Shown here: one piece after another, positions 5,234 through 30,518 of the stretch | Layout: every line of letters begins with the position of its first letter | Position numbering within the stretch: position 1 is the first letter of the stretch | Assembly: GCA_022794495.1 (NCBI GenBank) | Contig: JAAWEX010000005.1 | Location: 1-32,229, forward strand | DNA length: 32,229 nt | From: Lawsonibacter sp. | GTDB taxonomy: Bacteria > Bacillota > Clostridia > Oscillospirales > Oscillospiraceae | Direction: 5' to 3' | The notes under the pieces: model-generated | Database searches by the model: none | What the model was told of the DNA's origin: nothing | Seen by the model: the letters and a program-made list of their open reading frames with translations, nothing else | Made by a program: the position numbers and the translations under genes

Positions 5234-6490
5234 ATGTGTTCACGTCAATCCGTCCGCCCCTGGCTGGTGTGCCTGGGCGGGGCTGTTATGTTCTTTGTCG
5301 CAATCGGGCTGGGCAGCAACCTGTATTCTGTCTACCAGCCCTACATTATCGTCCAAAACGGCTTTACCAATACCCAGGCCGCATGGATTGTCACCACCCG
5401 CAGCCTGTTCATCGTTCTGGGCATGTTCACCGCCGGATGGCTGTGCGCCCGCCTGGGCATCCGGAGCACCGTGACGGCGGCTATGCTGCTGATGGCCCTG
5501 TCCCGGTTCCAGTTTGGCGCCGCCCGCACCCTGCCCGCCTATCTGGCGGCGGCGGCGGTCACCGGGCTGGCCTACAGCTGGGGCGGGATGATCCCCCTGT
5601 CTCTGCTTATCAACCGCTGGTTCCAGGACCGGAACACCTTCGCCCTGGGGCTGGCCTCGGCCAGCAGCGGCCTGGCCACCATCCTCCTGCCCGCCCCCAT
5701 CACCTGGCTCATCCAGTCCTGGGGGCTGCGGGAGGCCTTCTGGGCTGAGTCCGCCTTCGTCCTCGTTCTGGCCAGAGTGGTGCATCTTCTGGTCCGGGAC
5801 GACCCGGCCCGGCTGGGTCTGGAGCCCTACCGCATAACGGAGGACCGGGAGCCGGACCGGACCCCGGTTCTCCATCCCGCGCCTGCGGGGATGACCCCGC
5901 TGTACTGGGGGCTGTTTCTGGCGGCGGTATTTCTCATCGGCGCCCCCACAGGCATCGGCATCAGCAACATCGGCGTCCTCTTTGTCACCGAGGGCTTCGA
6001 CGCCGCCACAGTGGCCCTGCTGGTCTCCTGCGTGGGGCTGGCCATGATTCCGGGAAAAATGATCTACGGCGAGCTGGCCGACCGGCTGGGAGGCAGGCTG
6101 TCCAGCCTGCTGCTCTGCGGCGTGTCGCTGCTGTCCTACGCGCTGCTCTGTCTGTCCGGCAGCGGCAGCAAGCCGGCGGCCCTCGCCGCCGTTCTCGCCT
6201 TTGGACTGGGGCTCCCCATCAGCAATGTCTCCTTCTCCGTGTGGTGCCAGGACTTTCTGGGGGACAGCGGCTTTGCCAAAGGGCTGAAATGGAGCCAGAC
6301 TCTCTATGCCCTGGGCATCGTCGCCCTGGCGCCTCTCCCCGGCTGGCTGGCCGACCGGACGGGCAGCTATATCCCATCCTATGTCCTCTTCTTTATGATG
6401 ATGGCGGCGGCCTCTGTGTTCATCCTCCTGACCTACCGGCGGACCGGGTCGGGCAGACGGCCGGTCAGCGGGCCAGCTCCCAGAGGATGA
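5234..6490 (+). CDS. MFS transporter (OxlT/monocarboxylate-like)
   Basis: 418 aa, about 12 hydrophobic segments, internal MFS loops (DRLGGR, WLADRTGSY); RBS ggggag upstream of ATG. Confidence 0.88.
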   Translation: MCSRQSVRPWLVCLGGAVMFFVAIGLGSNLYSVYQPYIIVQNGFTNTQAAWIVTTRSLFIVLGMFTAGWLCARLGIRSTVTAAMLLMALSRFQFGAARTLPAYLAAAAVTGLAYSWGGMIPLSLLINRWFQDRNTFALGLASASSGLATILLPAPITWLIQSWGLREAFWAESAFVLVLARVVHLLVRDDPARLGLEPYRITEDREPDRTPVLHPAPAGMTPLYWGLFLAAVFLIGAPTGIGISNIGVLFVTEGFDAATVALLVSCVGLAMIPGKMIYGELADRLGGRLSSLLLCGVSLLSYALLCLSGSGSKPAALAAVLAFGLGLPISNVSFSVWCQDFLGDSGFAKGLKWSQTLYALGIVALAPLPGWLADRTGSYIPSYVLFFMMMAAASVFILLTYRRTGSGRRPVSGPAPRG

Positions 6491-16047: not shown

Positions 16048-16139
16048 GGGATAGCCCTCCAAGTCGTTGGAATCTGGGCTATCCTATGCAAATTGCTAAT
16101 TTACTGTGCGCAGGGGGCGGCCCCTGCATTTATGCCCTC

Positions 16140-28159: not shown

Positions 28160-28741
28160 CTACCCCCAGCCGCCGGAAAATTCCGGCTGGCAGTCGGTGT
28201 CCTGCACCACAAAAATCTCATACAGATGGGACAGGGCGTCCCAGGTGGCCTTATCCATACAGCCTGTGGCCGGCAGTCCGGCGGCCCTTTGCAGCCACCG
28301 GACGTTTTCCGCCGACGCAGGCCCGTGGTTTCCGTCCGCCTGGCAGGGAGTGATTCCCTCAAAGTGCCGGGACAGCACATTAAACATGGTCTGTGGAACG
28401 ATCATATACTCCCTGCTGTTCCCCTCGTGAACCTGAATGCCCTCTGACGGAAATACCCGCGTGGCCCGGGAGTAGCTCTCTCTGGTCTGCTGCCTCAGCC
28501 AGCAGCTGTGGATGGCGTCCCAGGTGGCCTGGTCCACCACCCCGGTGACCGGCAGGCCCGCCTCCCGCTGAAAGCGCATCACCGCCTCCAGGGTGCGCTC
28601 GCCGTAGACCCCGTCTACCGCCAGCTCCGGTAAAAACTGATAGGTTTTCGACAGCTGACGGAGCATATACTGCAGGCTGCTCACCGGCTTGGCCAGCATC
28701 TCCCGCTCCAGCAGCTCCCGTCCTGCCGCAGTGTCTCTCAT
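28160..28741 (-). CDS. protein with two PG_binding_1 domains
   Basis: Start MRDTAAGRELL at 28741 (ATGA overlap with upstream stop); LQYMLRQLSKTYQFLPELAVDGVYGERTLEAVMRFQREAGLPVTGVVDQATW and a second copy near the C-terminus. Confidence 0.85.
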   Translation of the reverse strand: MRDTAAGRELLEREMLAKPVSSLQYMLRQLSKTYQFLPELAVDGVYGERTLEAVMRFQREAGLPVTGVVDQATWDAIHSCWLRQQTRESYSRATRVFPSEGIQVHEGNSREYMIVPQTMFNVLSRHFEGITPCQADGNHGPASAENVRWLQRAAGLPATGCMDKATWDALSHLYEIFVVQDTDCQPEFSGGWG

Positions 28742-29994
28742 ACCTCTACTCCTCTCTGTCCATTCTGACCATCCCGCTGGCCCAGCTCCAGGGGCCGGCC
28801 CGGATACTGGCCCATCCGGGGGGTGGCGCCCCACTGCTCCGGCTTCTCTCCGGGCAGGCCTCCAGACATCACCGGAAGGGCGTCCTCTCTCAAGGACTGA
28901 GCCCGCACCGTGTCTCTGCGGAGGAAGTAGTCTGCCAGGGCGAAATTGCTGTAAATGGAGTTCCAGGCGGTCTCGTCCACATAGCCGTTGGGGGTCAGGC
29001 CCACCAGCTGCTGGTAGGTGCGCACCGCCTGGGTGGTGGCGGAGCCGAACTGACCATCCACCGCCATCGGAAGCAGGGAGCTGTCAAACTGGGCCAGCAT
29101 GGCCAGCATATATTGCAGAATGCCCACCTCCGGGCCGCTGTCCCCCTCCTCCAGGGGGCCGGGAAACTGGAAGCGGACGGTGACAAAGCTCTGTCCCTGG
29201 CTCACCAGCTCGGCAAGCTGGAGGATGCCCGCGTAGAGATAGACCATCTTATACCAGGTAGCCTTGCCCACCACCCCGTCCGGGTCCAGGCTGAAAATGC
29301 GCTGGAAGGTGCGCACCGCGTTCCGGGTATCCTCCCCGAAGACGCCGGTAACCGGAGCAATCTTGGGGATGGCGGGGTAATTTTGAGAAATGCGGTTGAG
29401 CATAAATTGGAACATGGCTACATTCTGGCCCACCGAGCCCAGCCGCATGGCTTCCCCCGGATAGGAGGGCGAGATGTCCTGGATGGGGGCGTCTACCACC
29501 AGCTCGATGTCTCTGCCGTAGTAGTGGCGCAGGATCTCCATAGAGTTGAGGCCGTCCTGGGCCAGCTCCTGACTGCCCCACTGGGACAGGCCGTCGCAGG
29601 TGGAGGTGGTGCCGTTGCAGAATTTGGCGGCCAGGGGCTCCACATAGCCCTGGCGGCGGATATAGTCGTTAAAAATCTCGTCCACGATCTGGCTGATGTT
29701 CTCAAAGATGTTCCGGCCCTTGATAAACTTCTGGTCATACTGGGTGGTGGAGGTGATCTGGAAGTCGTAGCCCCGGCTGGGGTAAAACTCGGTATACACC
29801 CGGTTCAGGGCGAAGGAGATGATGGCCAGCACGTTGGCCCGAATGGCGGCGGGCTCCCAGGTGGGGTATATCTCGCTGGAGGCCACGTTTTTTACATAGT
29901 CGGGAAAGGATACGGTAACATTCTCCGCCCACTGGTCGGGCAGGCCCATGTGCACCGTGATGGTGCGGGGCACGTATGGAAGAATAATGGGCAT
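28738..29994 (-). CDS. SleC-like spore cortex-lytic protein core: SpoIID-like lytic domain plus two PG_binding_1 domains
   Basis: 418 aa; NVASSEIYPTWEPAAIRANVLAIISFALNRVYTEFYPSRGYDF, GRNIFENISQIVDEIFNDYIRRQG, GLSQWGSQELAQDGLNSMEILRHYYG; then VFGEDTRNAVRTFQRIF and VDGQFGSATTQAVRTYQQLVG. Confidence 0.82.
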   Translation of the reverse strand: MPIILPYVPRTITVHMGLPDQWAENVTVSFPDYVKNVASSEIYPTWEPAAIRANVLAIISFALNRVYTEFYPSRGYDFQITSTTQYDQKFIKGRNIFENISQIVDEIFNDYIRRQGYVEPLAAKFCNGTTSTCDGLSQWGSQELAQDGLNSMEILRHYYGRDIELVVDAPIQDISPSYPGEAMRLGSVGQNVAMFQFMLNRISQNYPAIPKIAPVTGVFGEDTRNAVRTFQRIFSLDPDGVVGKATWYKMVYLYAGILQLAELVSQGQSFVTVRFQFPGPLEEGDSGPEVGILQYMLAMLAQFDSSLLPMAVDGQFGSATTQAVRTYQQLVGLTPNGYVDETAWNSIYSNFALADYFLRRDTVRAQSLREDALPVMSGGLPGEKPEQWGATPRMGQYPGRPLELGQRDGQNGQRGVEV

Positions 29995-30006
29995 AGCGGC
30001 TCCCCC

Positions 30007-30408
30007 TCACAGGCTCTGGGCGGGGATATCCCGCTCGTCCCGCTGCTGAAGGCTGCAAAGTCCCTGGGGCAGGGGGATCAGCTCCATGCTCTGCATCGTC
30101 TCAACACCGGGGAATATCTGCACGTTCTCCACCTGGAGCATCGCGTAGCCGGGCTGCTCCGCCCACACAGAGCACAGCGCGCAGGGGGCGCCGTCTCCGG
30201 GCAGCCCGTTGGGCGAGGTGCTCTCCGCCGGGAAGGGGGTGTCGATCTGTATGGTGTTGATTTTTCCGCTGCTGTCAGTACACTGTATGGAGAGCAGCTT
30301 CCACTTGCCCTCCTCCCCCGGCGCGGCCACCACTACCGTGGCCCCCTCCAGGGGTATCTGCGCCTGGGAGGTGTACACCCGGACGCTTAAGGTTCCTGTT
30401 GCTTGCAT
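30007..30408 (-). CDS. stand-alone SleC-type N-terminal (prodomain-like) beta-sandwich protein
   Basis: Start MQATGTLSVRVYTSQAQIPLEGATVVV at 30408 (RBS GGAGGT); ...VENVQIFPGVETMQSMELIPLPQ; stops 12 nt before the SleC-like core ORF. Confidence 0.6.
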   Translation of the reverse strand: MQATGTLSVRVYTSQAQIPLEGATVVVAAPGEEGKWKLLSIQCTDSSGKINTIQIDTPFPAESTSPNGLPGDGAPCALCSVWAEQPGYAMLQVENVQIFPGVETMQSMELIPLPQGLCSLQQRDERDIPAQSL

Positions 30409-30518
30409 TGTGATACCTCCTAACGGCAGCCCCATCCAGGGGACTGCCGCTCATCCCATCCTATGCCAGGGATGCCTCCCGTGCCCCGCAGGTTTCTCCG
30501 GAGCTTCGTTTTCCGCTC

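Follow-up and report, generated by a model that had tools for sequence, protein, structure and literature searches.

The cutting of SleC by Csp proteases is the textbook start of clostridial spore germination, a picture drawn from Clostridioides difficile and Clostridium perfringens. The window considered here (the whole stretch of DNA that was analysed, 32,229 nt) raises the question of how a SleC might be deployed when its N-terminal region and its enzyme are encoded by separate genes. An initial annotation had described three open reading frames, reading the first as the SleC propeptide region, the second as a SleC-like enzyme and the third as a protein of two PG_binding_1 domains, and had suggested that the first acts in trans, as inhibitor or chaperone, and that activation may be Csp-independent. 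The layout that it gave was confirmed in its coordinates, its 12-nt gap and its ATGA overlap: on the minus strand ORF1 is followed by ORF2 and then ORF3, all co-directional, and the gene upstream of ORF1 is divergent (Table 1).

Table 1. Features of the split SleC locus, in window coordinates
Feature	Coordinates	Strand	Description
Promoter, AC-N15-CATAGGAT	30458..30482	(-)	sigma-K-type mother-cell promoter, 49 nt before ORF1 ATG
ORF1, 133 aa	30007..30408	(-)	SleC pre-domain homologue, prealbumin/CnaB-like beta sandwich, free-standing protein
Spacer ORF1-ORF2, 12 nt	29995..30006	(-)	sequence; Shine-Dalgarno-like GGGGGAG before ORF2 ATG
ORF2, 418 aa	28738..29994	(-)	SpoIID-like lytic transglycosylase SleC chain, two PG_binding_1 repeats; without pre or pro segment
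Glu41 codon, in NVASSEIYPTW	29872..29874	(-)	presumed catalytic acid
PG_binding_1 repeat 1, ORF2 residues 189-250	29245..29430	(-)	Pfam
PG_binding_1 repeat 2, ORF2 about residues 287-349	28948..29136	(-)	Pfam, two stretches
ORF3, 193 aa	28160..28741	(-)	counted from ATG overlapping ORF2 stop as ATGA; ATGA-coupled to ORF2; two PG_binding_1 repeats

The relationship of ORF2 to SleC, as annotated, is clear, residues 6-263 aligning to 217-476 of the solved pre-pro form of SleC (PDB 9h68) with E=4e-72 across the catalytic core. Pfam recognises PG_binding_1 (4e-27) and, at the cut-off, SpoIID (1.3e-4), and the second of its PG-binding repeats is also covered by NCBIfam and PDB matches at 276-349. 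The position of Glu41 is invariant in both a 15-row SleC alignment and a 54-row composite alignment, and by analogy with SpoIID this residue is presumed to be the catalytic acid. The fold of the catalytic domain is common to ORF2 and SpoIID, but ORF2 carries added PG-binding repeats and falls far under the SpoIID equivalog cut-off (TIGR02870, 33.4 bits against 234.75). Hydrolase_2 (PF07486) had no match in ORF1-3, placing them outside SleB, whose model matches the PG-binding part only.

As a single sequence ORF1 had no match above the cut-off in Pfam or the PDB. A profile built from 55 split ORF1s matches residues 61-177 of 9h68 (E=1.4e-19); transthyretin-like and collagen-binding-adhesin folds rank far behind. 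When a model was trained on split ORF1s and nothing else, it picked up all the fused N-domains that were tried but no shuffled control. The AlphaFold model of ORF1 (pLDDT 85.5) likewise has SleC as its best match, the top four structures in a fold search of the PDB being the four chains of 9h68 (TMq 0.77-0.79). Purifying selection acts on the gene, with dN/dS of 0.14-0.28 when genus relatives are compared. Judged by profile and modelled fold, ORF1 is thus a homologue of the SleC pre-domain encoded separately.

ORF3 has no catalytic domain and its PG_binding_1 match (9.9e-27) falls in two stretches, that is, the two repeats that had been annotated, a number equalled in ORF2. A homologue of ORF3 follows downstream at every genus locus (30/30) and at 85 of 109 split loci elsewhere; of the 13 single-chain loci tested none has one. 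On this distribution ORF3, a putative third subunit or adaptor in the annotation, is specific to the split form. It would supply, as a protein of its own, the additional PG-binding repeats carried in cis by long single-chain forms of SleC.

A split of this kind could be an artefact of sequencing or assembly, and the ORF1-ORF2 junction had been flagged for checking against a frameshift. The check was made through relatives. ORF1 precedes ORF2 in 151/152 split loci with upstream sequence (150 found by script and one, L188, by direct search), the exception, L176, lying near a contig end, and it is directly upstream in 25/25 genus genomes examined. The offset between the two genes is distributed over all three frames (62/35/53 loci) and the ORF1 stop codon may be TGA, TAA or TAG. 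A frameshift or assembly artefact is rejected since adjacency is kept across relatives whilst the frames vary, and conserved or programmed read-through is rejected since neither frame nor stop codon is conserved; the split is genuine. In the window itself ORF1 and ORF2 do share a frame, separated by one TGA and four codons, so that read-through of the TGA could here yield some ORF1 and ORF2 as one chain, but with frame and stop codon varying as they do elsewhere this is extremely improbable. The conserved adjacency of the two genes is evidence of a functional linkage, not of a complex.

The survey of related genomes for fused and split versions, which had been proposed with the annotation, found both, the split form being common to the genus and to many relatives. 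ORF2 was matched in 60/61 genus genomes, and the loci of the order and class show a clean divide: in split loci the core begins 4-14 aa after the start codon and an ORF1-like gene lies upstream, and in fused loci 150-190 aa precede the core. Of the named genome loci, 80 in all, the scoring gave 77 split, none fused and three without a score; one of these three (L188) is split and the other two are at or near contig ends. Ruminococcus flavefaciens (L163, L190, L138), generally described as non-spore-forming, carries a split SleC pair; cultured carriers are its strain SAb67 (L163) and Ructibacterium gallinarum DSM 107454 (L155). In an unrooted tree of 84 cores, from which one very long row (L211) was left out, a single branch (bootstrap 99, SH-aLRT 92), recovered in 100% of the bootstrap trees, separates all 54 split rows from the rest, and another (100/100) sets apart all eight Csp-type rows. 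As the split cores form one clade, one ancient event is indicated; on this tree the split arose once and persists in many families of clostridia in the absence of Csp, and gene fission is likely, rather than fusion. No description of a split SleC was found in a literature search, which is not proof that there is none. In sum, the split form of SleC is genuine, ancient and conserved, and within the literature searched it is undescribed.

An important consideration is which part of the classical protein has been separated from the enzyme. C. difficile SleC is cut twice, by YabG after R119 during sporulation and later, at germination, by Csp; the YabG site in C. perfringens SleC is R114. Edman data equate Q120 of SleC with position 177 in the 9h68 chain, an offset of 57, by which ORF1 corresponds to residues 4-120 of SleC, namely the pre-domain, with a short tail in addition. 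The annotation was thus right in that an N-terminal region of SleC is present as its own gene, but that region is the pre-domain removed by YabG and not the segment removed by Csp. Mature C. perfringens SleC starts at Val150, the Csp cut site. The initiating Met of ORF2 falls at about SleC residue 155 and so corresponds approximately to the start of the mature enzyme, because Val150 plus the five-residue offset between the YabG sites leads to the same place. A KIPE motif marks the pro segment in 8/8 Csp-type SleCs and is absent from long single-chain SleCs (0/23), split cores (0/54) and split ORF1s (0/79), as counted by eye on printed junctions with F and D variants included. Its absence from the split genes indicates that the gene boundary sits where the Csp-cut propeptide would be. 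By sequence comparison ORF2 lacks the Csp-cut pro segment, and its start lies close to that of mature SleC. Two features of a classical zymogen are accordingly missing: split forms have no KIPE pro segment, and pre-domain, pro segment and enzyme are not in one chain, pre-domain and core being separate genes in the source DNA and in split loci of genus, order and class.

A third such feature is the protease itself. The Csp prodomain family was found in 5/194 class genomes and 3/119 order genomes. In the genus it was found in 0/61 genomes, 31 of them near complete, a search that matched no control genome and that depends for its validity on the positives which the same model gave in class and order. 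As the genome of the source DNA is 70% complete, the absence of Csp rests on these relatives. With a CspB protein query three order genomes scored 248-1291 bits and no other exceeded 37 bits, and the possibility that Csp had been missed through a weak model was rejected for the order on this basis. All eight genomes with Csp (G217, G237, G294, G317, G324, G130, G178, G167) carry a Csp-type SleC, which usually adjoins the csp genes. In G167 there is only a fragment, a 217-aa core piece truncated at its start (L196:1505-2155) with csp on another contig, and this piece is a decayed or misassembled copy. Two of the eight, G130 (L053 with L108) and G324 (L083 with L103), have a Csp-type SleC beside csp and a split pair elsewhere without csp; no Csp was found in the other split genomes searched. 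Since Csp is present only in genomes with a Csp-type SleC, it tracks the KIPE-bearing SleC and not SleC generally. The suggestion of Csp-independent activation has so far gained support, the split arrangement going with the absence of Csp.

The C. difficile sleC gene belongs to the sigma-K regulon, whose promoters have AC and CATA-type boxes (PMC3789822). A CATAGNAT-type box is kept in the upstream regions of the genus, and of 128 split loci 30 have AC-N15-17-CATANNAT upstream of ORF1 (shuffles: 0.5, maximum 3) and 53 have a match to CATANNAT by itself (shuffles: 4.6), the distance to the ORF1 start being mostly 30-50 nt. By this enrichment the split loci have the sigma-K-type promoter of a classical sleC. 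Two more CATAGGAT boxes are present on the minus strand of the source DNA, at 16081-16088 and 6376-6383.

It might be asked whether the split protein acts at germination at all. By its kinship with SleC we infer that ORF2 would be a cortex-lytic transglycosylase acting at germination. Instead it could act in spore formation, in cortex or septal wall remodelling or in mother-cell lysis, with other hydrolases opening the cortex. Its fold relative SpoIID acts in engulfment, and a SleB/CwlJ-type hydrolase is found in 30/31 near-complete genus genomes, so that the main cortex enzyme may be one other than ORF2. However, SleC is by far the closest solved relative of ORF2, the promoter is of the sigma-K type as for C. 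difficile sleC, none of the 31 near-complete genus genomes has YpeB, the usual partner of SleB, and the SleB/CwlJ family was not found in some split genomes (e.g. G072, G095, G114, G254). A role in spore formation is on these grounds improbable. A GerA-type protein is found in 31/31 near-complete genus genomes, as one copy in 30/31, and in G007 its gene lies within a full operon with GerAC-like and spore-permease genes.

The interpretation that we favour, and consider rather likely, is that the locus encodes a Csp-independent, non-zymogen SleC expressed from a sigma-K-type promoter, with the N-domain supplied in trans, more probably as a partner in folding or placement than as an inhibitor. 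The three proteins would be made by the mother cell at a late stage of sporulation. ORF1, whose translation immediately precedes that of ORF2, would be an intermolecular version of the pre-domain and may help ORF2 to fold or to reach the cortex, where the PG-binding repeats would anchor the complex. ORF2 would not be held as a proteolytic zymogen and, with pro segment and Csp both missing, spores probably switch SleC on in some other way. The start signal would probably arrive by another path, for example through a Ger receptor operon like that of G007 and calcium-dipicolinate release, or through loss of contact with ORF1 or ORF3.

A chaperone role has been proposed for the prepeptide of C. 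perfringens SleC. The inhibitory role offered for the N-segment in the initial annotation is not supported. ORF1 would then cover the ORF2 cleft during dormancy and be released without cleavage at germination, and the conserved adjacency of the two genes would fit, as would a short C-terminal motif (PAQSL or PPQNL) kept by many ORF1s, which matches the start of the pro segment and is a predicted strand. In C. difficile, however, the pre-domain is removed during sporulation, and in yabG mutants SleC retains it and is still activated (PMC10681294), so that no block of the enzyme by the pre-domain is known and folding or placement is favoured over inhibition. A single-chain composite model of ORF1 and ORF2 (pTM 0.66) has two good domains that are packed unlike those of 9h68 (whole-chain TM 0.42), without the packing of the zymogen; this too argues against inhibition, which we consider unlikely, and as the packing differs any docking of ORF1 on ORF2 is putative.

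The form of SleC most favoured here, with its pre-domain in trans, shares with the Csp-activated SleC of C. difficile and C. perfringens a pre-domain, a SpoIID-like core, a PG-binding repeat and a sigma-K-type promoter, and differs in having separate genes for pre-domain and enzyme, no pro segment, no Csp and extra PG-binding repeats, some of them on a third protein. There is also a third form of SleC, one chain of about 600-930 aa in which the pre-domain is joined to the core and several PG-binding repeats are present (L058, L062, L064, L065, L067, L068, L070, L092, L093, L195, L197-L206). Like the split form these long single-chain SleCs lack the KIPE pro segment and have several PG-binding repeats, and there is no Csp in their genomes unless a Csp-type SleC is also present; unlike it they have the pre-domain fused to the core and, at the 13 loci tested, lack an ORF3-like gene. 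Of the rows outside the split clade, one of them, L092, lies closest to it. In the SleB-YpeB system of Bacillus a cortex enzyme is likewise encoded with a separate partner protein, but the catalytic domain is unrelated and the N-terminal partner here resembles SleC and not YpeB.

Most SleC relatives outside the Csp group in this survey have neither the cut segment nor the protease. The separate N-domain gene offers a natural test of pre-domain function because it can be deleted or swapped with the enzyme untouched, and G130 and G324, which have both systems, allow comparison in one cell. It is conceivable, if some way short of probable, that in a large share of the gut spore-forming clostridia the main cortex enzyme is a multi-subunit, non-zymogen SleC with its pre-domain in trans, germination proceeding without Csp proteolysis and being gated by the assembly or release of the complex. 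The findings suggest that the spores of many gut commensals may germinate by a route untouched by agents aimed at Csp.
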